This document shows, one piece after another, positions 4,891 through 33,829 of a DNA stretch of 64,000 bases. The position numbers and the translations under genes are program-made. The stretch is taken from the NCBI RefSeq assembly GCF_000025565.1, contig NC_014121.1:4054216-4118215 (forward strand), written 5' to 3'. How positions within the stretch are numbered: the first letter of the stretch is position 1; each line of letters starts with the position of its first letter. This DNA comes from Enterobacter cloacae subsp. cloacae ATCC 13047 (GTDB lineage: Bacteria > Pseudomonadota > Gammaproteobacteria > Enterobacterales > Enterobacteriaceae). The notes beneath the pieces are model-generated. The model ran no database searches and was not told the origin of the DNA. It worked only from the letters and a program-made list of their open reading frames with translations.

Positions 4891-5937
4891 TTAAACGTTA
4901 TTTCTCTCATGCTCAATGAGCCATTCTTTTCGAGAAATCCCCCCTCCATAACCCGTCATCGCTCCATCTTTACCAATTATCCTGTGGCAAGGGATCACAA
5001 TCGCAATTCGGTTTGCACCATTAGCAGCAGCGACAGCGCGCACAGCATTTGGCTTATTCATCCGTAGTGAGATGGCCTGATAGTGTGAGGTCTGTCCATA
5101 GGGAACTGACCGCAGCTCGCGCCAGACGGATTGTTGAAAATCACTCCCCGGGGCATCTACAGAGAGATCAAACTGTCGGCGCGTTCCGGCAAAATACTCG
5201 CTGACCTCTTTTACTGTCTGCCGGGTGTGGCTGTTTTCTCCGGTGACGATTCTGGCGTTAAATAAACGCTGAATATCGCGAAATTCTGTTTCTAACATCC
5301 GGCGATCGGTAAACTCCAGTAGACAAACTCCCCGCTCTGTCGCACAGACAAACATCGGCCCAAGCGTCGTGGTAAAACGGTGAATGACAATCACCTGGGT
5401 TGCCTGAGTCGGCGCTGCACCAGTAAGTCGCTTATAGGTATAACCAAACCCGCTCAGGGATTCATAGCCGTTGTCCAGCGCAACGTCAGTCGCCGTTCGT
5501 CCGCTTTTGAGCTCCTGCAGGGCAACGTTCACCCGCTGCATTCGCTGGAAAGCCTGAAAAGTGATGCCGTGATGTTGCAGAAACCAGCGCCTTACCCGCT
5601 CCGGACTGATTCCATGCTGGCGAAGCTCCGCGTCTGCAACACGGGATTTAATATCGCGCCTGACAAGCGCAAGCGCCTGTTCAACAAATAATGGCGCGCT
5701 GTGCGCATTCTCAGCGGGTCTGCAGACCTTACAGGGCCGAAAACCGGCCGCAAGGGCAGATTTGGCATCTTTATAAAATTCGACATTTTCACGTTTGGGC
5801 TTTCGCGCCCGACATACCGAAATGCAGAACACGCCAGTGGTTTTAACGCCGACAAAAAACACGCCAGTATATTCTGAAGCACGTTCAAGTAATGCCTGAT
5901 ACCAGATATCACATAAATTCTTATCGGTTATTTTCAT
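4891..5937 (-). CDS. ada: Ada: bifunctional DNA methylphosphotriester/O6-methylguanine methyltransferase and activator
   Basis: 348 residues from the chosen start. The N-terminal zinc domain has four cysteines (C38, C42 in FCISVC and C69, C72 in PCKVC); Cys38 is the methyl acceptor from phosphotriesters in this family. An AraC-type helix-turn-helix follows (about 85-180), then the methyltransferase domain ending with the active-site IPCHRIIG motif. Ada repairs alkylated DNA and, once methylated, activates the adaptive response. I chose the ATG at 5937, with AAGGAC upstream, over an in-frame ATG at 5988 because residues before MKITDKN do not resemble the family. The start overlaps the upstream gene's end by 17 bases, so the two are probably cotranscribed. 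Confidence 0.93.
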   Translation of the reverse strand: MKITDKNLCDIWYQALLERASEYTGVFFVGVKTTGVFCISVCRARKPKRENVEFYKDAKSALAAGFRPCKVCRPAENAHSAPLFVEQALALVRRDIKSRVADAELRQHGISPERVRRWFLQHHGITFQAFQRMQRVNVALQELKSGRTATDVALDNGYESLSGFGYTYKRLTGAAPTQATQVIVIHRFTTTLGPMFVCATERGVCLLEFTDRRMLETEFRDIQRLFNARIVTGENSHTRQTVKEVSEYFAGTRRQFDLSVDAPGSDFQQSVWRELRSVPYGQTSHYQAISLRMNKPNAVRAVAAANGANRIAIVIPCHRIIGKDGAMTGYGGGISRKEWLIEHERNNV

Positions 5938-6703
5938 CACCAAAAAGTCCTTCAAACGTCTGACGAGATCGGATCGCATGCATGACATCAGTCAGCGTTG
6001 ACTGCATGGCTGAATGCACAAAATTGCCCATGGAAATGCGGCTTACTCCGGCCAGCTTCAGCCTGTCGAACGACGGAAGGTCGGGCATACACATGACATT
6101 AAGAGGCAGAACCGTCGCCTCTGCAATGAGGCTGATGTCTTTCTCTGACGTCAGACAGGGAACAAAAAGGCCGTCAGCACCTGCAGCTTTATAACTTTGA
6201 CCCCGTAATATCGTCTCCTGCAACGCATCTACATGCCCGAGCAGGTAAGTGTCAGTCCGGATGTTCAGAAACAGGCTATGATTTTCGCTTCTTAGCGCAT
6301 CGCATACTGTTCTTAGGGTACAGGTAAAATCAGAGGCATCGTCAAGCTGACGCACCCCGTTTATGACTCTGCTGTCTTCAAGGTTAACGCCTGCGACACC
6401 TGTCTGAGCAAGGCGCCTGAGATTGGCTGTTATCTCTTCGGCTGAATCACCATACCCTGCTTCCATGTCAACGCTCAATGGCAGCTTGCTGACAGCCTGG
6501 ATACGGGTGACCATATAAAATAACGCATCAAATGGCATTCCCTGCCCGTCTTCATATCCTAGTGTGGACGCGATTGCTGCGCTGGACGTTCCCAATGCCT
6601 GATAACCTGCTTCTTGCGCTGCTACAGCACTGGCGGCATCCCAGACATTAGCGATAAGAAGTGGCTCATGCTGGTTGTGGAGTTCTGCAAAGTTCATATC
6701 CAT
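5921..6703 (-). CDS. Isocitrate lyase/PEP mutase family protein
   Basis: 260 residues. MNFAELHNQHEPLLIANVWDAASA opens a PEP-mutase/ICL TIM-barrel of the short PF13714 type. VDMEAGYGDSAEEI provides the metal-binding acidic residues, and NLEDS and RTDTYLLG follow in the usual order. Most such stand-alone proteins have no assigned reaction; C-C or P-C bond lyase chemistry is possible. It precedes and overlaps ada. Nothing else nearby suggests phosphonate metabolism, so I do not call it a phosphonate enzyme. Confidence 0.85.
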   Translation of the reverse strand: MDMNFAELHNQHEPLLIANVWDAASAVAAQEAGYQALGTSSAAIASTLGYEDGQGMPFDALFYMVTRIQAVSKLPLSVDMEAGYGDSAEEITANLRRLAQTGVAGVNLEDSRVINGVRQLDDASDFTCTLRTVCDALRSENHSLFLNIRTDTYLLGHVDALQETILRGQSYKAAGADGLFVPCLTSEKDISLIAEATVLPLNVMCMPDLPSFDRLKLAGVSRISMGNFVHSAMQSTLTDVMHAIRSRQTFEGLFGDENNR

Positions 6704-8850: not shown

Positions 8851-9240
8851 ATGCATTTGACTGAAACCCAGCTGATCGCCCGCGTCCCCGTCTGGCACGC
8901 CTTATCAGAACTTTTTTCCGGGCGTGAACTCCAGGAGTATGACTATCAATGGATGGCAGAGGTGCTGAAAAAATCCGAATTAAACCGGGAAGAGATCTTC
9001 AGAATTGTGGATGAGGAAGTCGCCCCTGCTCTACAGGCTAACCTGCTTTACAACCCAACGCCGGTGATGGACGGTTGGTCAGAGGAAGACATCAAACGGC
9101 TTGTGACAGCGTATTTGAACAGAAAGCCGACAATTATCGAACGCATCATTCCGGCCCGGGTACTGTTAAAACAACGGCGCAAACACATCAGCAAGGAACT
9201 TAACAGGCTATCCGCTGAGCTTGATAACGGCTTGTCATAA
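8851..9240 (+). CDS. DUF7079-like small cytoplasmic protein
   Basis: 129 residues starting at ATG 8851, one base after the preceding stop, with AAGGGAGA at 8836-8843. A longer frame from 8785 would overlap the upstream gene and lacks a ribosome site. The pattern VWHALSELFSGRELQEYDYQWMAEVLKKS...EIFRIVDEEVAPALQANL resembles the DUF7079 family of acidic helical proteins. The tail is basic (ARVLLKQRRKHISKEL). Pairing of a hydrophobic upstream product with a small soluble downstream one is the layout of toxin/immunity pairs, but no direct evidence supports that here. Confidence 0.6.
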   Translation: MHLTETQLIARVPVWHALSELFSGRELQEYDYQWMAEVLKKSELNREEIFRIVDEEVAPALQANLLYNPTPVMDGWSEEDIKRLVTAYLNRKPTIIERIIPARVLLKQRRKHISKELNRLSAELDNGLS

Positions 9241-9298
9241 GTTATAAAGCGAGATGATAACCAAAGAACGTTAATAGCACAGGCCTTCCCGCAAAAAC

Positions 9299-9333
9299 AA
9301 AAGCCCGCACACCTCAGGAATGCGGGCTTTTTT
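9299..9333. terminator. Strong bidirectional intrinsic terminator
   Basis: AAAAGCCCGCA and TGCGGGCTTTTTT form a GC-rich stem with an 11-base loop and T-runs on both strands. It separates the plus-strand DUF7079-like gene from the minus-strand dioxygenase operon that ends at 9352. Confidence 0.9.
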
Positions 9334-9351
9334 ATACCAGCAAGGTCACCC

Positions 9352-10362
9352 TTACTCGGCGACCACAAACCCCGGCAGATCGGCATCGAAGTAGTTATGA
9401 TACATATTCATCACCTCGGGATTACGGAAGCTGTAGGTTTTCAGCAGCCAGCGTTTTTCCGCTGAGTATGGATCTCTCACCTGGATGATTTCCCGGTTGT
9501 GTAAAGAGTCCTGATTGGCGAAGGAGAACAGGTCGCCTTTGTTAATAGCAACGCGGCCTTTTGCCGCTTTGGTGATGGCCACCTTAAGGTCAATTAATGC
9601 TTTGATCGCCTCTGCTGGCGCATCCGGAGAATACGTTGTGCGTGTGTCGTAGTAACGGAAAGTATGAATATTCTCCAGGATCGGATGCAGCTCAGAATCA
9701 ATCTGGCTGGCGTTCGAGTCGCGAGAGTATTCATCAAAAGGGGTAATAAAAAGTGGCTTTCGTAACCACTCCTGGGATTCAGCCTTCAAATTATCCAGAA
9801 TCGCTTTACCGTCCAGGTAGCCGGTAAAAATCAGGTTTTCTTCGCTGCAACGCATGCCTAATAAACTGAGAAAATCAGCACGTACCGGGTGAGCGGTGCG
9901 ATCGTTGTGGTAATAAAGTTCGCCGTCCGTTTTTTGCGTTTGTGTGTTGCTGTATTTTTTGTCGGCATAAACATCATGGAAAAAATCACCGTTGTTGCGC
10001 GTACGGTAGGCCAGTAACGGGGAGTCGGTGAGCTGTGCGAACAGCTCCAGCAGCGCCTCTCCTACAAAGGTGAGCTTTTTGGCGTACTTATCGTTAACGG
10101 GATTGGACTGATCAAATTCAGGAATGATGGTGTCGAGTGGTACGTTTTTTAATAAATGCGCGTTAATGCCTTGATCCTTGCGCTCTTGCCTGACGCGCTC
10201 GCAGGCCTGAACAAAAAAAGTGGGCACCAGACCATTTTCGATGAGTTCGGTGATGGACTGCTTGAAGAGTTTGTAGTCTGTATAAGGGCTGATGGTGACA
10301 CGGCTGATAAGTTTTGATAGCTCATCTTTTTGAAGATCGTTAAACTCTAGCTGGGTGATCAT
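9352..10362 (-). CDS. TauD/clavaminate-synthase-like Fe(II)/2-oxoglutarate dioxygenase
   Basis: 336 residues. The facial triad is visible: H152-N153-D154 in ELYYHNDRTAHP and a distal H288 in QDSLHNREI, with R296 placed to bind 2-oxoglutarate. The surrounding FLSLLGMRCSEE and GDLFSFANQ are typical of the clavaminate-synthase branch, which includes hydroxylases of free Lys, Arg, Asn and related amino acids. A hydroxylated amino acid or small acid is therefore the likely product, but the substrate is not readable. It is the last gene of a minus-strand operon, 87 bases after the LeuD-like gene. It ends at a strong terminator. Confidence 0.85.
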   Translation of the reverse strand: MITQLEFNDLQKDELSKLISRVTISPYTDYKLFKQSITELIENGLVPTFFVQACERVRQERKDQGINAHLLKNVPLDTIIPEFDQSNPVNDKYAKKLTFVGEALLELFAQLTDSPLLAYRTRNNGDFFHDVYADKKYSNTQTQKTDGELYYHNDRTAHPVRADFLSLLGMRCSEENLIFTGYLDGKAILDNLKAESQEWLRKPLFITPFDEYSRDSNASQIDSELHPILENIHTFRYYDTRTTYSPDAPAEAIKALIDLKVAITKAAKGRVAINKGDLFSFANQDSLHNREIIQVRDPYSAEKRWLLKTYSFRNPEVMNMYHNYFDADLPGFVVAE

Positions 10363-10449
10363 AGTTTGATTGCCTTATGTACGCTCAAAACAGACGCTGC
10401 ACCCTGAGAAAGTAAGGCGTCTTGTTTTGAGTCTTATGGTTGTATTGGA

Positions 10450-10989
10450 TTAAATCTTTCCTGTTTGCCTTGCGTAAGCGAACAAGCCACCGGCGGCGAC
10501 AATGTTCGCAAGTTCCCCTACCGGAGCGGTTTTCAGAATCCCATCAGCAGTACCAATCTGATGAGCGTCTAAATCGATTTCAATGGTATCCCCCGTTTTC
10601 AGCGCACGGATATCACAGCCTTCATTCAGCGTGACGGGCATGATTTGCCCCGTGGATACACAGTTACGGAAAAATATGCGGGCGAACGACTGGGCGACGA
10701 CGGCCTTCACGCCGGATGCTCCCAGGGCCACCACCGCATGCTCGCGCGATGAGCCACAGCCGAAATTTTTCCCGGCCACAATAAAGTCATAACCGGCTCG
10801 CTGCGTCTGCGGGTTAATAAACGGCAGCGCCCCTTCCGGCAGTCCGCACATGGCGAGCGTTGCCAGCTCTTCACGCCCCTCGGCAGAGGCCGGGTTAATT
10901 TTCAAATATTCAGCCGTTAATATCTGGTCGGTATCGATATTGTCGCCTAACACATAAACTGTACCGCGCATTACGTTATTAATAGTCAT
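10450..10989 (-). CDS. LeuD-like aconitase-superfamily small subunit
   Basis: 179 residues. It has the swivel-domain fold of isopropylmalate dehydratase/homoaconitase small subunits: DNIDTDQILTAEYL near the start and GKNFGCGSSREHAVVALG in the middle. Its start overlaps the large-subunit gene by 11 bases, so the two make one enzyme. Housekeeping LeuD of enterobacteria is about 200 residues and sits in leuABCD; this shorter form in a different context is a specialised paralogue, closer to archaeal-type or pathway-specific isomerases. The substrate is unknown. Confidence 0.88.
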   Translation of the reverse strand: MTINNVMRGTVYVLGDNIDTDQILTAEYLKINPASAEGREELATLAMCGLPEGALPFINPQTQRAGYDFIVAGKNFGCGSSREHAVVALGASGVKAVVAQSFARIFFRNCVSTGQIMPVTLNEGCDIRALKTGDTIEIDLDAHQIGTADGILKTAPVGELANIVAAGGLFAYARQTGKI

Positions 10990-12334
10990 TAGTTAAGTAC
11001 CGTTCTGGATTAGTAATAAAACCGGTCACTGCCGCAGCAGCCACTGCATAAGGAGAGGCCAGATAAATCATCGCGCCTTTATTTCCCATCCGCCCCACAA
11101 AGTTACGGTTGGTGGTGGAGATCACGCTTATCGGATCCCTGACTCTCCCAAAGGTGTCCGCTGGCCCGCCACAGCAAGCCGCGCAGCCGGGTTCAGAAGA
11201 TAATTTAACGCCAGCCCGGGTCAGGATTTCATACACGGATCGGCCCTTCACCTGGGTGGTGATCAGATTATGAAAAACCTCTTTGGTCGCGGGAACGGCG
11301 TAGGTTGGGATGGCCACCTTGCGCTGCCACAGTATTTCCGCAGCAGCGATAAAATCATCCGTTTTACCGCCCGTGCAGGAGCCAATATAGGCTTGCGAAA
11401 TGGCAATATTTTCCAGTTGTGCCACTGCCACCACATTATCCGGGGAGTGTGGCCGCGCAATCACGCTGGTTAATGCCGAGACGTCAATATCAATCGTGCG
11501 GACGTAATGCGCGTTTTCATCAGGCGCCAGCACGGAATACGGGACGGTAGTTCTGGTCGCCAGGTAATCCAGCGTGGCCTGGTTTGGCACCATAATGCCG
11601 TTTTTAGCCCCGCACTCCACAACCATATTGCACATCGTCATTCGCTCTTCGACCGATAATTCATCGATGACGTTGCCGGTAAATTCGATGGCATTATAGG
11701 TCGCCCCTTCCACGCCCAGCTCTTTCATTAACACCAGAATTAAATCTTTCGCCTGAACGCTTTTCGCTTTTTTACCGTAGTAATTCACTTTTATGGTGGC
11801 GGGGACCATCAACGGGATCTCCCCCGTACCCAGGGCATACGCCCCGTCGGTGATCCCCACGCCAATGGCGAAGGTGCCAAAGGCCCCGGCGGTCACGGTG
11901 TGAGAATCGGTCCCCAACAACACCTCTCCCGGCCGGGTGTGTCCCCCTTCCGCCAGGCCGATATGACACACGCCTTTATAGTCCGGGGTGCCCACATCAT
12001 AAAAATGGGTAATATTTTGCGCTTTTGCGAATTCCCGCATTACCCGAATATTTTGATTCGCCTGCGGGTCGGCGGAATAAACAAAGTGGTCAGGGATCAT
12101 AATAAAGCGATCCGGATTCCAGACTTTTGCCTCTTCACCAAATTCTTTTTTAAATACGCTGGCGACGCCAGGCGTGCAGGGATCGTGGGACATTAATACA
12201 TCAACATTCACGAAAAGCACTTCACCCGGTGAAACATGCGATCTCTTGCTGGCTCTGGCGATTATTTTTTCGGTTAACGTCATCCCCGGCTTTATATTTA
12301 CCGACGCATAATCATCAGTTTCGTGAATATTCAT
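10979..12334 (-). CDS. LeuC-like aconitase-superfamily large subunit
   Basis: 451 residues from ATG 12334, which follows a clear GAGGAGAG site; an in-frame ATG at 12391 is less likely. The 4Fe-4S ligands are in YIGSCTGGKTDDF and EPGCAACCGGP, and GTDSHTVTAGAFGTFAIGVG is the conserved substrate-domain stretch. The family performs dehydration/rehydration of malate-type 2- or 3-hydroxy acids. The CAACCGG form of the second cysteine motif is unlike enterobacterial LeuC, as I recall it, and supports a specialised enzyme. It is coupled to the small-subunit gene. A 108-base gap separates it from the MFS gene upstream, so an internal promoter is possible. Confidence 0.88.
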   Translation of the reverse strand: MNIHETDDYASVNIKPGMTLTEKIIARASKRSHVSPGEVLFVNVDVLMSHDPCTPGVASVFKKEFGEEAKVWNPDRFIMIPDHFVYSADPQANQNIRVMREFAKAQNITHFYDVGTPDYKGVCHIGLAEGGHTRPGEVLLGTDSHTVTAGAFGTFAIGVGITDGAYALGTGEIPLMVPATIKVNYYGKKAKSVQAKDLILVLMKELGVEGATYNAIEFTGNVIDELSVEERMTMCNMVVECGAKNGIMVPNQATLDYLATRTTVPYSVLAPDENAHYVRTIDIDVSALTSVIARPHSPDNVVAVAQLENIAISQAYIGSCTGGKTDDFIAAAEILWQRKVAIPTYAVPATKEVFHNLITTQVKGRSVYEILTRAGVKLSSEPGCAACCGGPADTFGRVRDPISVISTTNRNFVGRMGNKGAMIYLASPYAVAAAAVTGFITNPERYLTNDY

Positions 12335-12442
12335 TTTTCTCTCCTCTTTATCTGATGGGGAAATTACACCGTACAGAGGAGGGGCTTTCAACGGGAATCC
12401 GTTATTCGTCAGATTAGTTTCATTTTGCGTATGAATTGTTCC

Positions 12443-13669
12443 TCAGGTGGAACTGTGCTCCCCGCTGCGCAAATTCTTTAAGTAAAGCAGTGCAGATATG
12501 CATACCACCAGAATATAGATCAGGCAGAAGATCAGCATCAGCGTGGAAAAGTCCCGGCTCACCAGCAGCCACGCCCCAACGGCCAGTAAAAAAGCATTGG
12601 CCAGCCCGAAATCACGCTCCATGCGCCCGAACACGCGCATACGTTCATCCGGGGTATTGGCAGAGAGATCGAGGTTAGCAAGCGTGACGGGCCGGATCGT
12701 CCCGGAGCCAAACCCCAGCAGCACCAGCGCCAGCAGCCCGGAGACAAAATAGTCCATGCCTCTCGCTGCAAGCCATTCATTGCTGGCAAAAAGCCCCAGC
12801 GCCGCCGTCATAAAAAGGCTTGTCGTCGCCAGTAACGCCGTTACCCCAAACCGTGCGATAAACGGCCCGGCTATTTTGATCGCCCCCCAGGACGAGAGTG
12901 TAAAGCAGCTCAGCACGGCACCGAAAAGCAGCGGGTCGACGTTCACCATAATAAAGTAGAACGGGATAAAGCCGATGAACGGCGCCAGCGTAAAAGCGCG
13001 TGAAATGGAATAGAACAGCATCCAGAAGAGCTGGTCCCCTCTGGGCGAAAAAGAGACCCGCTCAACAGGCCGGGCTGATTCGGGCTCTGCCTCCTGCACG
13101 CGAATCAACGCCACGCATCCGGCGGAGATAACGCTCACCACAATGGCGGCGATAAACGGCCACTGGGGGTTGTAGTCAAACAGAATACTCCCCAGCGATC
13201 CGGCGATCAGGGTGGCAATAAACATCCCGCTTTGCGACGTGGTCTGGATCTGCATAAACCGGTGCTGATCGCCTGCGGTGAGCTGGCGCAGCAGGGCCGC
13301 ATCCGTGGTCAGCGCAATGGTAAATCCCGCGCCGCCAAGCAGCTGCGACACCACCAGCAGAGGGAGGCTGACCTCACTTTGCCGGGTGCTCCAGAGCATC
13401 AGCGCCATTCCCAGCGCCTTCATCAGTTCGCCTGCAATCACCGTCTGTCTGGGTGACAAGAAGCGCAGCAGCCAGCCGGGTATGCCGCTGCTGAAGGTGC
13501 TGGTCAATCCATACAGCGCCAGCAGGAAAATAATCCGGTACATCCCCATGTCTATTGTCCAGAAATAGAGCAGCAAGACGGGAAGATGGAAATAGCAACG
13601 GGAAATAATACGGTAGGCCAGGAACAGGCCATGGTTGCCAGACCCGGGATGTAACCGGCGCGTCGTCAT
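12443..13669 (-). CDS. MFS transporter (12-TM type)
   Basis: 408 residues with about eleven or twelve hydrophobic segments and MFS-style loop residues between halves (VQEAEPESARPVERVSFSPRGDQ is the central cytoplasmic loop). The start overlaps the Sua5-like gene's stop as ATGA, so the two are translationally coupled. In this operon it most plausibly exports the product, perhaps with the HlyD-type protein. That protein normally pairs with 14-TM EmrB-type pumps, so the pairing is uncertain. Confidence 0.82.
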   Translation of the reverse strand: MTTRRLHPGSGNHGLFLAYRIISRCYFHLPVLLLYFWTIDMGMYRIIFLLALYGLTSTFSSGIPGWLLRFLSPRQTVIAGELMKALGMALMLWSTRQSEVSLPLLVVSQLLGGAGFTIALTTDAALLRQLTAGDQHRFMQIQTTSQSGMFIATLIAGSLGSILFDYNPQWPFIAAIVVSVISAGCVALIRVQEAEPESARPVERVSFSPRGDQLFWMLFYSISRAFTLAPFIGFIPFYFIMVNVDPLLFGAVLSCFTLSSWGAIKIAGPFIARFGVTALLATTSLFMTAALGLFASNEWLAARGMDYFVSGLLALVLLGFGSGTIRPVTLANLDLSANTPDERMRVFGRMERDFGLANAFLLAVGAWLLVSRDFSTLMLIFCLIYILVVCISALLYLKNLRSGEHSST

Positions 13670-14271
13670 GACGCCAGCATCGCCATAATATCCATATCTC
13701 CCGCACGAAGGATTTTAATCTCCTTCTCCAGTAACGAGACGATGGTGCTGGAGACCGTTGTCACCGGACGCTGGACTGCGGGCAGAATATAGCCCACACG
13801 GTCGCCAAACGTCTGGCGGGCGGCATCAATGTCGATCAGGCAGTCAGACTCCACGCCGGAAAGATTGGCAGAACTCATCCCCAGCGGGCGGCCAAACAGC
13901 GCAATCACCTCTCGCAACACGCTCTGATGATTGCACACCAGAGAGATGGATTCCGGCTTCAGATACGGGTTCTGCGGCACATTGTCCGATGCCGGAACCA
14001 CCACATTCAGCGCGCCGGGCATGGCACCAATCAGTTTGTCGAGCGCAGCGCGGTGCTGGACCTTATCGACGGCGATGTAATCCCATGCCTGCGCCGGTTC
14101 CGCGACGAAAAGCGTCAGCGGTTTCTGTCGTTCGCGTTTTTTGAGATCGTAAATTTTCTGGCAGGCGTCAATGTTCCACGGGTCTGCCGCCAGGGCGTAA
14201 TTCGTGTCCGTGGGGACCAGAACCACCTCGCCGCGCTTCAGGGCGGCGACCGTATTGTGTATATGCTGCAT
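13666..14271 (-). CDS. Sua5/YciO/YrdC-domain protein, canonical copy
   Basis: 201 residues. PTDTNYALAADP (about 20-31), KKRERQKPLTLFV (about 44-56), a PGALNVVVP segment and SSANLSG are all present, the full set of ATP/bicarbonate/amino-acid binding motifs of threonylcarbamoyl-adenylate synthases. Family members condense an amino acid, bicarbonate and ATP to a carbamoyl-adenylate. The genome's tRNA-modifying TsaC/YrdC should be elsewhere, so this copy is probably pathway-specific. It lies 12 bases after the HlyD-type gene and overlaps the MFS gene. Two divergent relatives lie at 16233 and 17051. Confidence 0.87.
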   Translation of the reverse strand: MQHIHNTVAALKRGEVVLVPTDTNYALAADPWNIDACQKIYDLKKRERQKPLTLFVAEPAQAWDYIAVDKVQHRAALDKLIGAMPGALNVVVPASDNVPQNPYLKPESISLVCNHQSVLREVIALFGRPLGMSSANLSGVESDCLIDIDAARQTFGDRVGYILPAVQRPVTTVSSTIVSLLEKEIKILRAGDMDIMAMLAS

Positions 14272-14283
14272 CTCTTTTCCTGT

Positions 14284-15510
14284 TTAAATGTTGACGGTTA
14301 CGCTACGGCCCGCGAGGCAGAAACTGGCGGGATCCGGCACGTCTTTCCAGTCGATATCGATATGTGCAGTCAGCACTTTCACGGGCAACTGCCGGCGCGC
14401 GATTTCAGGCGGGGGCTGTACGTCCCTCTCCCCGACCGCCACGCGTCCACTCCCTGCGCGGAGGGTTCTTATCGTTCCTTTCCAGCGCGTGGCGGATGCG
14501 GTGGTCAGACGCACCGTTACCGCCATCCCCGGGCGCAGACTGCCGGCGTCAGCCTCATCAAAAAACGCCTCTACCCAGCGGGTGCGGCAATCCAGAATGC
14601 GCACAATCGGGGTGCCGTTCTGAACGCTCGCACCACTCTCCTCCGTCACGTCCCAGATCACGCCGTCCGTGCTGCTGTTGAGCGCCGCCTGCTGACGGGA
14701 GTGAAGGAGCGCAGCGACTTCCTGAATGCTCTGCGTCGTCGCCTGCTTGCGGGCAATCAGCTGTAGCTTCTCCTGCTGCATATTCTCGATAGTGAGCGAC
14801 ATATCGCGCTGATTCTGCTGTGGCGCATCCAGCGTTCTTGGCCCTGTCAGCTGAAGGCCGGATTTGGCGGCATTCACGTCCAGTAAACGCTGACGGAGCT
14901 CGGCCGCTTTCGCCTCCTGGCTGGCCTGCAACACCCGCGTGTTGTTCTTACGCTCTTCATACTCCATGCGGCTGATGAAACGCTGCTGGTAGAGATTTTC
15001 ATAGCGCTGAAGCTGCTGTCGGGAGAAGGCAGTTTGCGCCGTAATCGCGCTCAGCTCCTCCTTCAGTTGCACAAACGTGGCAGCCGATTGTTTCTCACCT
15101 AACTGCTGCTGCATCCTGCTCTCGGCGAGGTACTGCTGCCGCTGCTGCTGATAAACCTGCAGTCGTTGATCGATCCCCGAAATTTGCTTGTCGAGTTCAG
15201 CAAGCTGGATCTCCAGCGCGCTGCGCTGGGCCACCAGGCCGGGGATCTGGTCGTTCGCCTGCGTGGTGACCACATTTCCCAGCGATTGCCGGGCCCGGAC
15301 CGCCTGTCCCGGCGCGATGTTCTTCGCCAGCACCAGCTGTCCCGGCAGCGGGGAGAGCACCGTGGATATTCGGCCATTGATAAAGGCCTCCTTGCTGGAG
15401 ACCCCCATTCCCGCAAAAAACAGCAGAACAATGGCCACCAGCACGCCACCCGCCACGCCCCATTTGAGCAGGCTATGCCGGGCGAAAACCGCTCTGATTC
15501 GGTTAATCAC
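14284..15510 (-). CDS. HlyD/EmrA-family membrane fusion protein
   Basis: 408 residues from GTG 15510, chosen because GAGG sits 5 bases upstream and only 10 bases separate it from the preceding gene; an ATG at 15558 would overlap that gene. One N-terminal membrane segment (WGVAGGVLVAIVLLFFAGM) is followed by a split biotinyl-lipoyl domain, a long alpha-helical hairpin rich in Gln, Leu and Arg (about 90-270) and a C-terminal beta-barrel (WVEAFFDEADAGSLRPGMAVTVRL). This is the periplasmic adaptor of tripartite export. No outer-membrane factor is encoded nearby in this operon, so TolC would be shared. Confidence 0.85.
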   Translation of the reverse strand: MINRIRAVFARHSLLKWGVAGGVLVAIVLLFFAGMGVSSKEAFINGRISTVLSPLPGQLVLAKNIAPGQAVRARQSLGNVVTTQANDQIPGLVAQRSALEIQLAELDKQISGIDQRLQVYQQQRQQYLAESRMQQQLGEKQSAATFVQLKEELSAITAQTAFSRQQLQRYENLYQQRFISRMEYEERKNNTRVLQASQEAKAAELRQRLLDVNAAKSGLQLTGPRTLDAPQQNQRDMSLTIENMQQEKLQLIARKQATTQSIQEVAALLHSRQQAALNSSTDGVIWDVTEESGASVQNGTPIVRILDCRTRWVEAFFDEADAGSLRPGMAVTVRLTTASATRWKGTIRTLRAGSGRVAVGERDVQPPPEIARRQLPVKVLTAHIDIDWKDVPDPASFCLAGRSVTVNI

Positions 15511-15520
15511 ACACGCCTCA

Positions 15521-15997
15521 TTAACGCTTATACAGCGTGACGACGCTGGCTTTCTCAAGGGTATGCATGTTGATGAGGAAACGTATCACCGCGTTTGGCA
15601 GATCCGGCGTCACGCCCAGGTCATCGCAGCTCAGGGCGTGCAGGGTGAAGATATAGCGGTGCGGAATATCCCCCTCTGGCGGGCAGCAACCGCCGTAGCC
15701 AGGCGCACCAAAATCGGAGCTGGCGTGTTTGATGTCGGGTGTGTTCGCCGGGTTTCCCGCGCCTGCCGCAAGCCCGGTCAGGCTGGCAGGAATGTTATAC
15801 GCCACCCAGTGCCAGAAACCGCTGCCCGTTGGCGCATCAGGATCGTACGCGGTTACGGCAAAACTTTTGGTTCCCTGCGGGACATTTTCCCAGGACAAGG
15901 CGGGCGAGACATTATCGCCATTCCCCCCAAAATTATGATATTCGTTCGCTTTGGAGAGAAAAGCGTAGTCACTTAAACCTGCAATAGATACTTTCAT
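15521..15997 (-). CDS. YbhB/YbcL-family PEBP-like protein
   Basis: 158 residues. DPDAPTGSGFWHWV and GYGGCCPPEGDIPHRYIFTLHAL are the two ligand-pocket motifs of bacterial phosphatidylethanolamine-binding-like proteins, called Raf-kinase-inhibitor-like in databases. The biochemical role of the family is unclear; small-molecule or anion binding is usual. No signal peptide is visible, so it is cytoplasmic. It is the first gene of the minus-strand operon running through the HlyD, Sua5, MFS, LeuC, LeuD and dioxygenase genes. Confidence 0.88.
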   Translation of the reverse strand: MKVSIAGLSDYAFLSKANEYHNFGGNGDNVSPALSWENVPQGTKSFAVTAYDPDAPTGSGFWHWVAYNIPASLTGLAAGAGNPANTPDIKHASSDFGAPGYGGCCPPEGDIPHRYIFTLHALSCDDLGVTPDLPNAVIRFLINMHTLEKASVVTLYKR

Positions 15998-16232
15998 AGC
16001 GTTAACCTCTGTTTGAAAATCGGTATTTACCGGTGGGTTGTTCTATTGGTAACCGATTGAAAGCAAAACCGGTAACAGAATTAACCAACCCGGCATATTG
16101 CCCAGGAATAACGCGATATTGTTCCAACACTGAAACAATGCGGTGAAAATTTCTCTGCTGATTGCGAAGCCTCTTATTACACGACATCCTTTCCCTAAAT
16201 TTATGACACCAGTGCGGTGCAGGGAGAATTGA
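15998..16232. promoter_or_regulatory. Divergent promoter region of the Sua5/LeuCD locus
   Basis: 235 bases between the divergent YbhB-like and second Sua5-like genes. The segment is AT-richer than the flanking genes and carries several copies of a CCGGTAA/TTACCGG-like half-site (for example around 16025-16040 and 16068-16074), which could be regulator sites. Promoter hexamers were not assigned. Confidence 0.4.
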
Positions 16233-17012
16233 ATGATGAATAAGAAAGTCGCGTGGAATGGTCAGGTTCAGCCGGAAGCGATTAACGTATTATCGGCTGA
16301 AGGCGGAATGATTGTTTGCCCTACGAAAGTGGGTTATATCATTATGACCTCAGATAAAGAGGGGCTGGAGAGAAAATTCGAAGCCAAACAGCGAAACCGT
16401 AATAAACCCGGCGTGGTATTGTGCGGCAGTATGGAACAGCTGAAATCGCTGGCGGAGATGAACCCGGAAATCGAGGCATTTTATCAGGCCCACTGGGATG
16501 CAGACGTATTACTGGGCTGTATTTTACCGTGGCGAGAAGATGCCATCGCCAGATTACCCGATAACGGCCTCAAAGAGCTGATGATGGACGGCAGAAAAAC
16601 AAGCTGCTTCGTGATTAAATTTGGCAAACCCGGCGAAATGATTGCTAAAGATCTGTGGGAAAATCATCAGAAATTCTCTTTTGCCAGCTCGGCGAATCCG
16701 TCAGGAAAAGGCAACCGCGGCATGGTGGAATTCATTGGGGAACGCATCGAATCGCGTGCAGACTTAATTATTTGTGCCAACGAGTACGTTAAGTCTATAC
16801 AGCCTGATGAAACCCAGGAGAGTCGCTATGAACAAGGCGTGATGGTGTCCATGGTGGACAGCGAAGGGAAACTGGTCCCTGAACAGGGTAGTGCCAGAAA
16901 AGTGACCCCTTGCCCGGTATTAATTCGCAAAGGTCTCGACGTGAATAAAATTATTAATTTCATGTCCGCCCAGTTTAATACCTGGGACTATCGCCACGGC
17001 GATTACTATTAA
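16233..17012 (+). CDS. Sua5/YrdC-domain protein, long divergent copy
   Basis: 259 residues, starting at 16233 or at the adjacent ATG 16236 after GGGAGAA. CPTKVGYIIMTSD replaces the usual PTDTxYGL, KQRNRNKPGVVLC keeps the basic KxRxxxKP motif and SSANPSGKGNRG keeps the nucleotide-binding SSAN motif. A roughly 60-residue C-terminal extension (from about 200, ending WDYRHGDYY) is unlike simple TsaC proteins. The changes at the amino-acid-binding end suggest a different substrate. It is divergent from the YbhB-to-dioxygenase operon and 38 bases upstream of the third Sua5-like gene. Confidence 0.82.
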   Translation: MMNKKVAWNGQVQPEAINVLSAEGGMIVCPTKVGYIIMTSDKEGLERKFEAKQRNRNKPGVVLCGSMEQLKSLAEMNPEIEAFYQAHWDADVLLGCILPWREDAIARLPDNGLKELMMDGRKTSCFVIKFGKPGEMIAKDLWENHQKFSFASSANPSGKGNRGMVEFIGERIESRADLIICANEYVKSIQPDETQESRYEQGVMVSMVDSEGKLVPEQGSARKVTPCPVLIRKGLDVNKIINFMSAQFNTWDYRHGDYY

Positions 17013-17050
17013 TTTTTGGGTTTAACCGCGTCACAGGGATATCGATAATC

Positions 17051-17644
17051 ATGTCATTTATAGACAAGGCCATTACCGTATTGCGTAATAGCGGGATCAT
17101 CCTGATCCCTACCGATACCCACTTTGCCCTGGCAGCCGATCCTTACAGCCCGGATGCCGTGGAAAAACTGACGCTGTTAAAAAGATCGCCCTGTACCAGA
17201 GAGATGACGTTTTGCTTCTGCGAACTGGCGGACATATGGGAATGGGTGGATGTCAGCCCGTGGCAAAGAAGCAAAATTGAAATGCTCAGCCGGGCCTGCT
17301 GGCCCGGCACCCTTAAAATCAGCCTGCGAAAGAAACAGCGCGCCGATTTTCTTCCCGGCGCAGGCGATATTCTCCCGGTCGTCTGCGTGAAAAACAGTCA
17401 GATGCGAACCATCATCAGCCGCTTAGGCAGGCCGCTGGTGGTGATCCCGGCAGGGTATCCGCAGGATGAGGGCGATCTTGTCAGTTTTACCCTCGCCCGG
17501 GAAGACATGGGAGACTGTGTCGATCTGGTTGTCCCGTCCAACTGCAAAAACCCCAGCCGTACCGCCACCACGCATATCTCTTTGCTGGATGACAAAGTCT
17601 CGATCCTGCGTCATGGCGAGCTGGATATCAGTAGCCTGCTTTGA
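17051..17644 (+). CDS. Sua5/YrdC-domain protein, degenerate third copy
   Basis: 197 residues. IPTDTHFALAADP and WPGTLKISL are kept, but the KRxxxKPL motif reads LKRSPCTREMTF and the SSAN motif is replaced by VIPAGYPQDEG. It may therefore have lost adenylation and act as a partner or regulatory subunit of one of the other two copies. Its 3' end overlaps the convergent LysR gene by 17 bases. It probably forms a two-gene operon with the copy at 16233. Confidence 0.8.
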   Translation: MSFIDKAITVLRNSGIILIPTDTHFALAADPYSPDAVEKLTLLKRSPCTREMTFCFCELADIWEWVDVSPWQRSKIEMLSRACWPGTLKISLRKKQRADFLPGAGDILPVVCVKNSQMRTIISRLGRPLVVIPAGYPQDEGDLVSFTLAREDMGDCVDLVVPSNCKNPSRTATTHISLLDDKVSILRHGELDISSLL

Positions 17645-18542
17645 CCTCGGCCCCGGCGATCAGCTGCTGAAGTTCGTCGCTAAAGCGTTTAATGCCTGAG
17701 GTCATCGTGTTTTTATTTTTGGACAGTAGCCACACTTTATATTCATCCATCTGCCAGCCGGGTAAAAGCCGGACCAGTTTCCCGGTGGCGAGGCTTTCTC
17801 GCGCAATGTAATTGGGCAAGTAAGCAATGCCGAGGCCGGAAAGCGCCATGCTGATCAGCGCCACGCTGTTGTTGCTTCTGAAGCGGCTATGAACGTCAAT
17901 ATTGACCTTCTGTTTCTCTTTTCTGAACGGCAGCGAAACCGTACGCGCCACACCGCGAAACAGAATGTAGTTGTGGGCCGGGAGATCGCCCGGCGTCAGA
18001 ACAGGACGCATCCGGGCGATACAGTCAGGGGTGGCATAAAGCCCCCACTGGATGGAGCATAAAAATTTGGTGTGCTCATGGGTTGGCGTGTCCTGCGCCA
18101 CAATGATAGAGAGATCGTACTGGCTCTCTTTGATATCCACCGCTTTATCCGATAAATCGAGATCGACGTTGGCCATAATATTTCGTTCTAAGTACGCATT
18201 TAATGCTGGCACAACATACTCTTTTCCGAACGTCACCGGGGCAAGTATTTTTATTGTCCCCGCTGGTTCCTCATAATAATCCCGTATAAAGCGTTCTGCG
18301 GCGCGCAGTTCATTCAATATTTTGAAGCAGTGCTGATAGTAGCTCAGCCCCAGCTCCGTAATCTCTATTTTCCGGGTGGTGCGCTTAAGCAGCATTGCAC
18401 CAATACGTTTTTCCAGCGTTGAAATATCCCGGCTAACTGATGACTTCGACATTCCCAAAGAGAGTGCGGCCTCGGTGAAGCTCAGGGTTTCGACGACACG
18501 CGCGAAAACCACCATCGGAATTAAATTCTCGATTTTTTCCAT
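17628..18542 (-). CDS. LysR-type transcriptional regulator
   Basis: 304 residues. The N-terminal winged helix (VVFARVVETLSFTEAALSLGMSKSSVSRDISTLEKRIG) is of the PnuR/DsdC-like CrgA subgroup, and the effector-binding domain runs from about residue 90. It is divergent from the MFS gene at 18871 and convergent with the third Sua5-like gene. It is the only regulator in the locus, so it is the best candidate to control both the MFS promoter and, less directly, the Sua5/LeuCD operons. Confidence 0.88.
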   Translation of the reverse strand: MEKIENLIPMVVFARVVETLSFTEAALSLGMSKSSVSRDISTLEKRIGAMLLKRTTRKIEITELGLSYYQHCFKILNELRAAERFIRDYYEEPAGTIKILAPVTFGKEYVVPALNAYLERNIMANVDLDLSDKAVDIKESQYDLSIIVAQDTPTHEHTKFLCSIQWGLYATPDCIARMRPVLTPGDLPAHNYILFRGVARTVSLPFRKEKQKVNIDVHSRFRSNNSVALISMALSGLGIAYLPNYIARESLATGKLVRLLPGWQMDEYKVWLLSKNKNTMTSGIKRFSDELQQLIAGAEVKAGY

Positions 18543-18870
18543 TCTACAATCTGCACCAGGTCAGCAAACATCACCCGATAATTAGTGGCAAAAGTCCTTG
18601 CTATCGTCAAGTGAAAATTTTCCAGCATTGTCGTTCTGCCCCGGCTCGATAATAACTCCGTAGCGCCGCACGGCTATTTTTCACCGCGTAACAAGAATAT
18701 ATTTTCTTCGAAAAATGGGTTAACTCAGAGGGTGAATATCCACGCACTAAAAGAAAAATATCTGGTTTTTTATGCTTTATTTATTGCTTCTGAATACGAA
18801 TTAAAAATTTAAATCCGCTGATTTCCCTCTAGCATAACGACTCAGGGTGAATGTTACGAGAGGGTTAATC
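18543..18870. promoter_or_regulatory. Divergent intergenic region between LysR and the MFS gene
   Basis: 328 bases without a gene. The middle part (18690-18800) is AT-rich and is the expected place for the LysR operator and the MFS promoter. No clear T-N11-A site was fixed. Confidence 0.4.
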
Positions 18871-20289
18871 GTGAGTGAATGCATAGTTTCAGGTACACAG
18901 TGGGGGGCACAAAACCCCATCCGCGAGGACGATCTTGCGGCAAGGATCGATGCCTTACCGGCTTCCGCCGGACTTTGGCGATTCATCGCCTTGCTGTCCC
19001 TTGGCGGTTTTTTTGAGCTTTACGATCTGTTTCAGACAGGCTACATCAGCGCCGGTCTCATTGCTGATGGCATCTTCCACACCGGCCAGCAGGGCGTGTT
19101 CGGTATGGCCGACCAGGCCGCGTTTGCGTCCGCAACTTTTCTGGGGCTTTTTATCGGTGCCAGCCTGCTCAGCCCCTATGCTGATCGCATTGGCCGACGC
19201 GCAACCTTTATGTATGCCCTGCTCTGGTACGGGCTGTTCTCCCTCGTCATGGCGTTTCAGCATCAGGCGGAATGGGTGATCTTTTTTCGTTTTATGGTAG
19301 GCATCGGCCTCGGCGTTGAACTGGTTACCATTGATACCTATCTGACAGAGTGGGTACCTGCTCACCTTCGCACCCGCGCCTTTGCTTTCGCCTTTTTCAT
19401 TCAGTTTCTCTCGGTTCCTGCCGTCGCGCTGATGTCATGGTGGCTGGTACCGCAGATGTGGTTTGGCCTGAGCGGATGGCGGTTCGTGGTGATCGCTGGC
19501 GCGCTGGCGTCCATCATTATCTGGCTGGTACGCAAGGGGCTGCCGGAATCTCCGCGCTGGCTGCTGCAGCAAAAGCGCTTTCATGAGGTGAGAACCGTCA
19601 TGCAGGAGATGGAGAAGCGCTGCGGCAGCGGCGAACAGGCGGATTTCCCTCTCCGCGCCGGGCAGCACAACGAACAGGTTTCACTCAAGGGCAGGTTTAA
19701 AGATATCTGGTCTCCGCGCTACCGTGGCCGGGTTGCGATGCTGGTGGTGATGAATATCTTTCAGGCGATTGGCTTTTTTGGCTTCGGAAACTGGCTGCCC
19801 GCCCTGCTGTCCGGCAGCGGGACATCCGTCACGCACAGTTTGTTATACGCCTTTTTCATCACGCTGGCCTATCCTCTTGGCGCGCTTATCTGCAGCCGCT
19901 ATGCCGATCGAATGGAAAATAAATGGCAAATCGTGTTGTCCTGTCTGACCACGGTCATCTTTGGTTCGCTGTTTGCGTTTCAGAGCAACCCACTGCTGCT
20001 CATTGCCTGCGGCTTTTTTATTACCTGGTCCAATGCCTGGCTGACTTACAGCTACCACTCCTATCAGTCAGAGATTTTCCCCACCCGTATCCGGGCGCGA
20101 GCGGTCGGCTTTTGTTACTCCTTTAGCCGTTTATCCACCGTCTTCAGCAGTATAATTATCGGTCTGATACTGCAATATAGCGGCTCAACGGCGGTCATTG
20201 CCTTTATTGTGATCAGTATGCTGATTGTTATGCTCACCATTGGTATTTTTGGTCCCAACACGCGCGGTATCGACCTGGAAAATATTTAA
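18871..20289 (+). CDS. MFS transporter (sugar/organic-acid:H+ symporter-like)
   Basis: 472 residues from GTG 18871, chosen because GAGAGGG sits 6 bases upstream; a further GTG at 18847 lacks a site. About twelve membrane segments are present. GGFFELYDLFQTGYI, DRIGRRATF (loop 2-3), RFMVGIGLGVELV and GLPESPRW are signatures of the sugar/aromatic-acid porter branch. The C-terminal half keeps a second RYADR loop. It is the LysR gene's divergent partner and probably moves an acid or polyol related to the neighbouring pathway. Confidence 0.85.
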   Translation: MSECIVSGTQWGAQNPIREDDLAARIDALPASAGLWRFIALLSLGGFFELYDLFQTGYISAGLIADGIFHTGQQGVFGMADQAAFASATFLGLFIGASLLSPYADRIGRRATFMYALLWYGLFSLVMAFQHQAEWVIFFRFMVGIGLGVELVTIDTYLTEWVPAHLRTRAFAFAFFIQFLSVPAVALMSWWLVPQMWFGLSGWRFVVIAGALASIIIWLVRKGLPESPRWLLQQKRFHEVRTVMQEMEKRCGSGEQADFPLRAGQHNEQVSLKGRFKDIWSPRYRGRVAMLVVMNIFQAIGFFGFGNWLPALLSGSGTSVTHSLLYAFFITLAYPLGALICSRYADRMENKWQIVLSCLTTVIFGSLFAFQSNPLLLIACGFFITWSNAWLTYSYHSYQSEIFPTRIRARAVGFCYSFSRLSTVFSSIIIGLILQYSGSTAVIAFIVISMLIVMLTIGIFGPNTRGIDLENI

Positions 20290-20442
20290 TCACGGTGACT
20301 AATAAAATGCCGTCTTACAACTTGTGAGCGGCATCCATGATTATTTTCGCTGCCCTGTAGATAATAACGTTGCCCCTAATAACATCGGGCGGGAGCATAC
20401 CAGGAAAACACGGATGAAATTTGCGCAAACAAGGAGAGAGCG

Positions 20443-20526
20443 ATGTACAGACCCTTCACCATAGTATTTTTTATTCAACTGACGCTGGCAGCACTGGCTG
20501 AGATTGGATATCTCACGTTCGGTTAG
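20443..20526 (+). CDS. Predicted 27-residue single-span membrane protein
   Basis: An AAGGAGAG site lies 4 bases before ATG 20443. The peptide begins MYRPFTIVFFIQLTLAALAE and ends YLTFG. It is almost entirely hydrophobic with one likely membrane span. Small proteins of this type are common in enterobacteria and easily missed. I do not recognise it. The other 20290-20648 bases hold nothing else I can support. Confidence 0.5.
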   Translation: MYRPFTIVFFIQLTLAALAEIGYLTFG

Positions 20527-20648
20527 CCTTTCGCATGAAATAGCGCCGTCATGGCCTCCACCCTTTTACAGTTTTTTCCTAAAGCCGCTTCGCTTTGTCT
20601 GTGACATGCTGAATCACGCTCATAACCGATAACGTAAATGAGGATATT

Positions 20649-32342: not shown

Positions 32343-32361
32343 TAGCACCTGTAGTACCTGA

Positions 32362-32382
32362 CCCGGGCGCACTGCGCCCGGG
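32362..32382 (+). other. GC-rich stem-loop between bapA and bapB
   Basis: CCCGGGCGCA and TGCGCCCGGG are exact reverse complements separated by one base, 20 bases after the bapA stop. No T-run follows, so it is not a complete terminator. It could act as a partial attenuator or a 3' stabiliser, giving much more adhesin than exporter. Confidence 0.7.
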
Positions 32383-32425
32383 CATAAACAATAAAGCTGT
32401 ACTTATTTTTTATTAGGGACATGAC

Positions 32426-33829
32426 ATGGGAAAGATGATGCCTTACTGGTGGCTCTCGTGCTGCCTGATATCTGTGCCCGCACTCTCCGCTAATCCGGCG
32501 GCGATGATTAATACCGGACAACTTCGCGAAACGCAGGAACTCCCCTCCCTGAATGGCCGCGTGGCGCCTGTGGCGGGCAACGCCGCCCCCGGCACGCTGC
32601 AGCTTGGCGACGCCGTCAACCGCGCCGTCACCTGGCACCCGGCCATCAGTGAAGCGGTAGGAAAACTCTACCAACAGAGTGAAGAGGTGGACGTCGCCAA
32701 ATCGAAATACTACCCGCAAATTAACGCCGGTATGGACAATGGCTATACCCATGACGGCGACGATAATGGCTTTACGCCATCGCTGGTGCTCTCTCTTTCC
32801 CAGATGCTGTACGACTTTGGCAAGGTAGCAAGCCAAGTGCGTGCCGAAAACGCCGGGGTTGCCCAGCAGCAGGCCAACGTGCTGGTGAGCATCGACACCA
32901 TCGCCCACGATACCGCCATCGCCATGGTGGAAGTACAAACCTGGCAGCAGATGGTCGATACCGCAAAAGAACAGCTCGACGCTCTCTCCTCCATTGGCAA
33001 GCTGACCCGCCAGCGTAACGACGAAGGGGCCACCTCGCTCTCTGACGTGGTGCAGACCGATGCCCGTATCGAAGGGGCCCGCGCCCAGCTCATGCAGTAC
33101 CAGGCCAGCCTCGACAGCGCCCGCGCCACGCTGATGAGTTTTCTCGGCTGGAACACCCTCAACGAGGTGGGCAACGATTTTCCGCAAAAGCTGGCCCGCA
33201 GCTGTGATATCGCCGAACCGGACGATCGTCTGGTGCCAGCGGTGTTAGCGGCCTGGGCGCAGGCTAACGTCGCGCAGGCCAACCTTGACTACGCCAACGC
33301 CCAGATGACTCCGACCGTCTCGCTGGAGCCGGAAGTGCGTCACTACCTCAACGACCGCTATGCGGGTAACGAAACGCGGGATCGCACGCAATACTCCGCG
33401 TGGGTGAAAGTGCAAATGCCGCTCTATCAGGGCGGCGGCCTCACCGCCCGGCGTAACGCTGCCGGACACGCGGTGGAAGCGGCGCAATCCACCATTCAGC
33501 GCACCCGCCTTGAAGTTCGCCAGAAGCTGCTTGAGGCGCGCAGTCAGGTGATGAGCCTGCTCAGCACCCTGCAGATCCAGGGTCGTCAGGAGGCGCTCAG
33601 CGCCCGCACCCGCGAGCTGTATCAGCAGCAGTATCTTGACCTTGGCTCACGCCCGCTGCTCGATGTGCTCAACGCCGAGCAGGAGGTCTACCAGGCGCGT
33701 TTCACCCAGCAACAGACCCTTGGCCAGCTGCATCAGCTGCAGCTCAACTGCCTCTACAACACCGGGCAGCTGCGCCATGCGTTCGATCTTGATAACCGCA
33801 CCATCCAGACCGTGGAGATCCAGCCATGA
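32426..33829 (+). CDS. bapB: TolC-family outer-membrane factor of the BapA exporter
   Basis: 467 residues. A Sec signal peptide (MMPYWWLSCCLISVPALSA) is followed by the duplicated OEP architecture with long helices rich in Gln, Ala and Leu; LGDAVNRAVTWHPAISEA opens the first repeat and WVKVQMPLYQGGGLTARRNAAG the second beta/helix segment. It forms the outer-membrane channel that exports BapA in one step. The 3' end overlaps the ABC exporter gene as ATGA. Confidence 0.9.
   Translation: MGKMMPYWWLSCCLISVPALSANPAAMINTGQLRETQELPSLNGRVAPVAGNAAPGTLQLGDAVNRAVTWHPAISEAVGKLYQQSEEVDVAKSKYYPQINAGMDNGYTHDGDDNGFTPSLVLSLSQMLYDFGKVASQVRAENAGVAQQQANVLVSIDTIAHDTAIAMVEVQTWQQMVDTAKEQLDALSSIGKLTRQRNDEGATSLSDVVQTDARIEGARAQLMQYQASLDSARATLMSFLGWNTLNEVGNDFPQKLARSCDIAEPDDRLVPAVLAAWAQANVAQANLDYANAQMTPTVSLEPEVRHYLNDRYAGNETRDRTQYSAWVKVQMPLYQGGGLTARRNAAGHAVEAAQSTIQRTRLEVRQKLLEARSQVMSLLSTLQIQGRQEALSARTRELYQQQYLDLGSRPLLDVLNAEQEVYQARFTQQQTLGQLHQLQLNCLYNTGQLRHAFDLDNRTIQTVEIQP

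Follow-up and report, generated by a model that had tools for sequence, protein, structure and literature searches.

A conserved Enterobacter gene cluster with a candidate small-molecule role for the TsaC/Sua5 fold

Three genes for Sua5/YrdC-fold proteins lie together with LeuC/LeuD paralogues, an iron-dependent dioxygenase and transport genes in Enterobacter cloacae subsp. cloacae ATCC 13047, and the question raised by this locus is what such a gene set is for. We analysed it within a 64,000-nucleotide stretch of the genome (the window; contig NC_014121.1, positions 4,054,216 to 4,118,215). Open reading frames and domain profiles confirmed the gene list and families first proposed for window positions 9352–17644: the minus strand carries, in order, genes for a PEBP protein, HlyD, SuaA, a major facilitator superfamily (MFS) transporter, LeuC, LeuD and a clavaminate-synthase/VioC-like Fe(II)/2-oxoglutarate (2OG) dioxygenase (DIOX), the plus strand carries those for SuaB and SuaC, and a minus-strand LysR gene follows (Table 1). 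The original prediction of three Sua5/YrdC proteins was right in number and wrong in treating them as equivalent, as SuaA is complete, SuaB belongs to a separate family and SuaC is degenerate. Our answer, which we judge evenly balanced between right and wrong, is that this biosynthesis-and-export cluster was acquired horizontally and yields a small metabolite derived from an amino acid, with SuaA making a carbamoyl-adenylate; that the cluster serves export is quite probable.

A genomic island with conserved gene content

The cluster sits in an 11.3-kb island at window positions 9243–20565, which is absent from the genus relative G010, where positions 9242 and 20566 map about 320 bp apart (blastn). 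The genes originally delimited at 9352–17644 stand, within a larger unit that also includes LysR and a second MFS gene. G+C content is 52.8% in the island, 57.5% in the right flank and 46.1% in the left flank, and the left flank finds matches in 7 of 40 genomes of the genus, several of them short pieces only. The nearest of the loci found is that of Enterobacter mori LMG 25706 (DIOX identity 99%), which matches window positions 8953–20355 at 93% up to the edge of its own sequence (blastn). DIOX occurs in 4 of 60 relatives, namely the 5.6-Mb host genome itself and G021 at 99–100% and two others at 41–51%, and in 3 of 394 genomes of the order at 1e-30, the host counted. G021 appears to be the E. 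mori genome, since matches fall at the same places in it and in G060, to which the LMG 25706 locus belongs. A megablast search of complete E. coli genomes gave no match to the cluster, and a search for tRNA genes found none in the window.

A genome-neighbourhood comparison, set beforehand as the test of conserved linkage, found the genes linked and not scattered. One genome per species was scanned, yielding 64 loci with DIOX relatives (100 stretches matched the pattern); three plasmid loci brought the total to 67, and neighbourhoods were compared by tblastn of the cluster proteins and a Staphylococcus epidermidis set. Two main kinds of neighbourhood were found, a Sua-type to which this cluster belongs and a LeuA-type in which DIOX and LeuCD are accompanied by LeuA, isochorismatase-family, FAD/NAD(P) and cupin proteins and, in some cases, glyceraldehyde-3-phosphate dehydrogenase (GAPDH). 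The midpoint-rooted DIOX tree holds one row from each of 50 of the 67 loci, rows lacking NGDFFxDV or shorter than 250 amino acids having been dropped; this removed the Tenebrionibacter locus and 16 others, the Pseudomonas, Vibrio and Photobacterium rows among them. Eleven DIOX rows labelled SuaA or SuaB and four unlabelled ones fall under one fork (support 100/99) nested among the LeuA-type rows, and the Tenebrionibacter locus, where the DIOX gene (L050:9540-10548) is split over two reading frames, was added by its 86% identity to make a subclade of 16 loci.

Across these 16 loci we counted LeuCD at 13, SuaA at 10, SuaB at 7, either or both of the two at 12, MFS at 11 (one a fragment), PEBP at 11 and HlyD at 7; related LysR genes occur at 7, a result that draws in part on a comparison of 22 loci hand-chosen from 77. 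The 12 loci bearing SuaA or SuaB span Proteobacteria, Bacillota and Actinomycetota, the smallest set being the LeuC-LeuD-DIOX-SuaA-MFS of Geobacillus, and the recurrence of much the same genes in such distant bacteria makes the grouping more than chance. Loci without the full set include a contig that begins in DIOX (L014), a Pseudonocardiales contig (L022), a Dyella remnant with short MFS and DIOX pieces only (L019) and a short Trichodesmium contig on which an aminotransferase and a 2-hydroxyacid dehydrogenase were seen by eye (L021).

The LeuA-type clusters, exemplified by S. epidermidis pML7049-5, share the DIOX family, LeuCD, MFS and LysR with the Sua-type and differ in their own LeuA, isochorismatase-family, FAD and aminotransferase genes, with a Sua5-like gene at only three loci outside the subclade. 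An S. epidermidis plasmid locus (L007:8836-20241) carries LysR, LeuA, isochorismatase-family, DIOX, cupin, MFS, LeuC, LeuD, FAD-protein, aminotransferase and GAPDH genes, and sets related to it occur in Streptomyces, Pseudomonas, Vibrio and others; furanomycin came into consideration as regards the Pseudomonas clusters.

Literature searches, in which the papers listed were judged by title and the start of the abstract, gave no described cluster with this gene set, in line with the original statement that no such system was known. The cluster type is thus real, conserved and, as far as those searches reach, undescribed, with the Pantoea PNP-3 cluster (record MN807451) compared by description only. 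According to passages in five papers, none of which lists its genes, PNP-3 is of similar size (8.5 kb, eight genes), comes from a host of the same order, has MFS transporters in a cited title and in one strain is predicted within a phosphonate/non-ribosomal peptide synthetase region. Neither P. agglomerans nor P. vagans is among the named SuaA relatives, many entries carrying no name. For FVG/PNP-1, the genes named in the accessible text are of regulatory, transferase and transport kinds, and neither isopropylmalate nor oxygenase appears as a term there. A phosphonate pathway of the pantaphos type was rejected, as no protein encoded at 9352–18542 belongs to the phosphoenolpyruvate mutase (PepM) family. 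A protein of the PepM fold is encoded outside the island at window positions 5921–6703, beside an Ada-like gene, and lacks the EDK...NS motif, which we take to be that of PepM.

SuaA, its relatives and the module without DIOX

The active site of TsaC/Sua5 enzymes, as described in the accessible part of PMC10321239, comprises K56xR58 and S143xN145 for ATP and T33, S181 and R195 for threonine. SuaA keeps the KxR/SxN tetrad, S181 and R195 in 11 of 11 rows and T33 in all but Geobacillus, which has Ser, and by these residues matches the TsaC/Sua5 catalytic family. Asn follows PT(D/E)T in all 11 SuaA rows, where 13 of 14 TsaC/Sua5-type host rows have Val and one has Leu, and three HypF rows keep the ATP tetrad with Gly both at T33 and at the Asn site. 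The Asn recurs in 47 of 49 database relatives of SuaA, the other two being truncated there, and from its closeness to T33 we infer that it lies by the pocket. SuaA shares fold, tetrad and threonine-site residues with the threonylcarbamoyl-AMP synthases of N6-threonylcarbamoyladenosine (t6A) formation and differs from them in its separate clade, in Asn for Val and in an exporter operon without TsaD, TsaB or TsaE.

In the tree, SuaA and SuaC split from 30 TsaC/Sua5/YciO rows with support 99/91; HypF and SuaB rows, which earlier trees had included, were left out of it. Of the Sua5 rows, L103, L107 and L114 were dropped at the stage of the earlier trees, and L109, L112 and L119 gave no match. Midpoint rooting was used throughout, and long branches drew a warning from the program. 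SuaA groups with neither host TsaC nor host Sua5 and so is not an orthologue of the t6A enzymes, and the trees rule out that it arose by recent duplication of the TsaC gene of the host. Of the six PF01300 places in the genome, three lie in this cluster and three group as YciO, TsaC and HypF types (type names assigned in this analysis), so that a separate TsaC is encoded. SuaA, SuaB and SuaC are present without a TsaC match in the E. mori draft (G060/G021), probably through an assembly gap; we do not accept a replacement of TsaC by SuaA, given the 96% completeness of the draft and the presence of both in the ATCC 13047 genome. Nor does SuaA fit the TobZ/HypF type of carbamoyltransferase, in which a Sua5-like domain goes with a Kae1-like transfer domain, as it is a single domain and no such partner is found among the proteins of 9352–18542.

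At 1e-20 SuaA was found in 1 of 398 genomes sampled from the phylum, the host itself. In a second sample, 32 of 396 genomes matched at the same threshold and 20 loci were kept, one of them the query; among the other 19 the motif was readable in 12, all Val, so these look like housekeeping enzymes.

SuaC carries R58S, S143P and N145G in 4 of 4 rows, thereby losing three residues of the KxR/SxN tetrad, and by these residues is a degenerate relative of SuaA. SuaB matches PDB 3l7v, which we take to be Streptococcus mutans smu.1377c, over residues 2–259 (391 bits) and forms a clade apart from SuaA; it keeps the tetrad in 7 of 7 rows, has Gly for S181 and shows R195 in the longer rows only. SuaB has 947 relatives at E 0.001, on which ground we rejected it as specific to the cluster, and SuaB-like genes also occur on plasmids, where none of four records examined carries the cluster.

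SuaA and MFS also recur without DIOX beside LeuA and/or LeuCD. A Skermanella plasmid carries relatives of both with HlyD, two LeuC, one LeuD, a PEBP at the edge, acyl-carrier-type genes and, by eye, a further LeuD-like protein annotated as hypothetical. In Staphylococcus aureus (L124:12242-16597), a divergent LysR gene and LeuA-like, SuaA, MFS and PEBP genes lie between clpB and a fabH–fabF pair; the record is labelled a plasmid, and the genes from clpB to fabF look chromosomal. SuaA overlaps MFS there as in Enterobacter, and the MFS is only 25% identical to that of the cluster. The Skermanella and S. aureus SuaA proteins both carry the Asn and group inside the SuaA clade with support 96/96. 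A Bacilli locus (L128:1936-11085) encodes an Asn-type SuaA on a long branch, MFS, an ABC transporter, LeuA, LeuC and LeuD, with second Sua5-like and TenA-like proteins by eye and no DIOX match. Another Bacilli locus (L129:9326-12328) combines a Sua5-like gene of Val type with a related MFS and, by eye, a GcvT-like gene.

The S. aureus operon appears, from its gene order and the names of its products, to be the four-gene leuA-like operon (SaurJH1_0995 onwards; SAUSA300_0879) for which the accessible part of PMC10019231 gives no function and reports inactivating mutations in clinical lineages and increased linoleic acid resistance of a transposon mutant of the leuA-like gene. It resembles the Enterobacter cluster in its SuaA-clade protein with Asn, its MFS, its PEBP and its divergent LysR, and differs in that a LeuA-like enzyme replaces LeuCD and DIOX.

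A putative pathway and its rivals

The predicted structure of DIOX has the clavaminate-synthase-like fold with a 2-His-1-carboxylate site and a 2OG Arg, and the active-site residues are present in all 16 subclade rows that reach them. Identity to VioC, AsnO, OrfP, NapI and clavaminate synthase is 17–21%, and the HxD motif of DIOX is a further difference. Judged by fold and residues, DIOX is a free-amino-acid-type Fe/2OG oxygenase, the branch to which it had first been assigned; hydroxylation at C-beta, suggested by analogy, is a call that could fall either way.

LeuC and LeuD share the Fe-S cysteines and GSSRE motif of isopropylmalate isomerase and homoaconitase (LeuCD, HacAB), for all 15 LeuC rows, drawn from 13 loci, keep the three cluster cysteines and all 13 subclade LeuD rows keep GSSRE. 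LeuC passes the HacA-family cut-off and LeuD the LeuD-arch subfamily one, and both miss the leucine equivalog scores (LeuC 375 against 611 for TIGR02083; LeuD 108 against 246 for TIGR02084), and the best PDB match of LeuC is 4nqy, an isopropylmalate/citramalate isomerase large subunit. Unlike the leucine pathway, this cluster has no LeuA or LeuB. The pair thus keeps the residues of a working Fe-S hydro-lyase/isomerase without scoring as the leucine-pathway equivalog, and, since the genome has other aconitase-family genes, LeuC was rightly called a paralogue.

HlyD is present at 7 of 7 Gram-negative SuaA loci and at none of 3 Gram-positive ones, a restriction that matches expectation for a periplasmic adaptor. 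MFS and HlyD look like an exporter in Gram-negatives, in support of the exporter included in the original set.

In the pathway we propose, LeuCD would shape a hydroxy-acid precursor that host enzymes convert to an amino acid, and DIOX would hydroxylate an amino acid, with C-beta as the probable site by analogy with VioC, AsnO and OrfP, to give a beta-hydroxy amino acid of the threonine-like kind that the kept residues of SuaA suggest as its substrate. SuaA would join it with bicarbonate and ATP into the N-carbamoyl-adenylate of an unusual amino acid. Because the cluster encodes no TsaD-, TobZ- or HypF-like transferase, this intermediate would have to react alone or with a small amine, be it by cyclising onto a hydroxyl, by way of an isocyanate or through capture by the amine. 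Threonylcarbamoyl-AMP decays to AMP and threonine isocyanate within minutes, as stated in the accessible part of PMC9654439. MFS and HlyD would export the product under LysR regulation, and SuaC, as a copy without catalytic activity, may serve in binding or regulation. A wider idea, which we put forward tentatively, is that SuaA typifies a new class of free-standing carbamoyl-adenylate synthetases for small molecules that work without a TsaD-like transferase, yield a cyclic carbamate, urea or isocyanate-derived product, and are paired with LeuA or LeuCD, an interchangeable iron oxygenase and MFS across several phyla, with S. aureus among the carriers. If the proposed role of SuaA is right, the TsaC/Sua5 fold has a second job in making small molecules, a residue signature exists for finding such pathways, and the unexplained S. 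aureus operon with its reported fatty-acid-resistance phenotype gains a testable function.

Several observations weigh against this pathway. Hydroxylation cannot be a general step, since the S. aureus operon lacks an oxygenase, and an Asn-type SuaA on a haloarchaeal Halobellus plasmid (L131:7971-8609) has no LeuA, LeuCD or MFS neighbours. The proposed carboxylate position of DIOX is Arg in 51 of 69 rows overall and is not Arg in Geobacillus, and the model is poor at residues 139–147 and 213–217 (predicted local distance difference test below 50). PEBP, frequent as it is in the subclade, has no assigned role. In Xenorhabdus, the two loci whose context could be read have SuaB and lack SuaA, and their genomes hold no further Sua5 protein beyond the YciO and TsaC types. 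Finally, a profile scan of the 67 loci found non-Asn Sua5-like genes at 3 of 51 loci outside the subclade (L030, L038 and L040), so Sua5 recruitment was not a single event; the genes lie near positions 13700–14950 of three Streptomyces clusters of the LeuA-type kind, and the weak SuaA matches at L038 and L040 were hand-labelled as not Sua.

The main rival explanation, in itself unlikely, is self-protection: DIOX and LeuCD would make a threonine-like antimetabolite that poisons TsaC and t6A formation, and SuaA, with SuaB, would be an insensitive or sequestering version of the target. The TsaC residue set of SuaA with its one change near the threonine site, the adjoining exporter genes, the extra Sua5-fold copies of which one is dead, the SuaB-like genes standing alone in the four plasmid records examined and the other Sua5-like genes in three clusters outside the subclade are all consistent with such a role. 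However, SuaA branches apart from the hosts' own TsaC, lies beside LeuA and no oxygenase in S. aureus, and was met without its module only once, in the haloarchaeon; on balance a biosynthetic SuaA is slightly favoured over a protective one.

It is improbable that the operon is instead catabolic or detoxifying, with efflux of a toxic intermediate and not of a product made for export. LysR control and MFS transporters would fit that role equally well, and the linoleic acid resistance gained on loss of the S. aureus leuA-like gene points the same way, whereas nothing in the core was recognised as an uptake system, HlyD is an adaptor of the efflux type, and the distribution of DIOX is patchy and its location in an island. 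Least probable of all, and very doubtful, is that LeuCD is a resistance target, an insensitive copy guarding against a product that inhibits leucine-pathway or aconitase-type enzymes with Sua5 as an accessory: its residues are intact and several clusters outside the subclade hold a copy of GAPDH, which might play the part of a target copy, but the profile cut-offs passed are not the leucine ones and different LeuCD types fill the slot across clusters, as for a needed reaction. The biosynthesis-and-export pathway is accordingly the reading we retain. The original interpretation, a locus that makes and exports a carbamoylated or hydroxylated small acid, is supported in part: linkage, exporter and dioxygenase branch are borne out, whereas carbamoylation or hydroxylation of the product, and action of all three Sua5 proteins on it, are putative.

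Feature coordinates and neighbouring genes

The SuaA and MFS genes overlap by 4 bases and the LeuC and LeuD genes by 11. The scan listed no promoter-like match between the divergent units, and the hairpin 3′ of the DIOX gene is absent from the scan listing, whose loop limit was 8 bases.

Table 1. Features of the cluster and island, in window positions.
Feature	Position	Strand	Evidence or remark
Terminator-like hairpin and T-rich tail, 3′ of DIOX gene	9303..9327	-	spotted by eye
DIOX, clavaminate-synthase/VioC-like Fe(II)/2-oxoglutarate dioxygenase	9352..10362	-	
LeuD/HacB-like aconitase-family small subunit	10450..10989	-	TIGR02087 126 bits, cut-off 109
LeuC/HacA-like aconitase-family large subunit	10979..12334	-	NF001614 447 bits, cut-off 385
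MFS transporter of module	12443..13669	-	PF07690; relatives adjoin SuaA in other records
SuaA, single-domain TsaC/Sua5-fold, 201 aa	13666..14271	-	PF01300 125 bits; trees; residues
HlyD/EmrA-like periplasmic adaptor	14284..15558	-	PF13437; start codon uncertain
PEBP (YbhB/YbcL-like) protein	15521..15997	-	PF01161, TIGR00481
Intergenic region between divergent transcription units	15998..16232	.	open reading frame coordinates
SuaB, Sua5-fold, smu.1377c family	16233..17012	+	PDB 3l7v match; separate clade
SuaC, degenerate SuaA relative, ATP-site residues replaced	17051..17644	+	
LysR-type regulator, end of unit	17628..18542	-	PF00126, PF03466
Second MFS, sugar-transporter type	18847..20289	+	PF07690/PF00083; in island, not conserved with cluster

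The second MFS has a close relative among the 40 genus genomes only in G021, and at 1e-15 the only other loci matched were that of E. mori and one of the host genome itself (L005). Beyond the island, window positions 21702–37198 encode a BapA-like Ig-repeat protein of 3546 amino acids, after which come genes for outer membrane efflux, ABC and HlyD proteins of the type I secretion kind.

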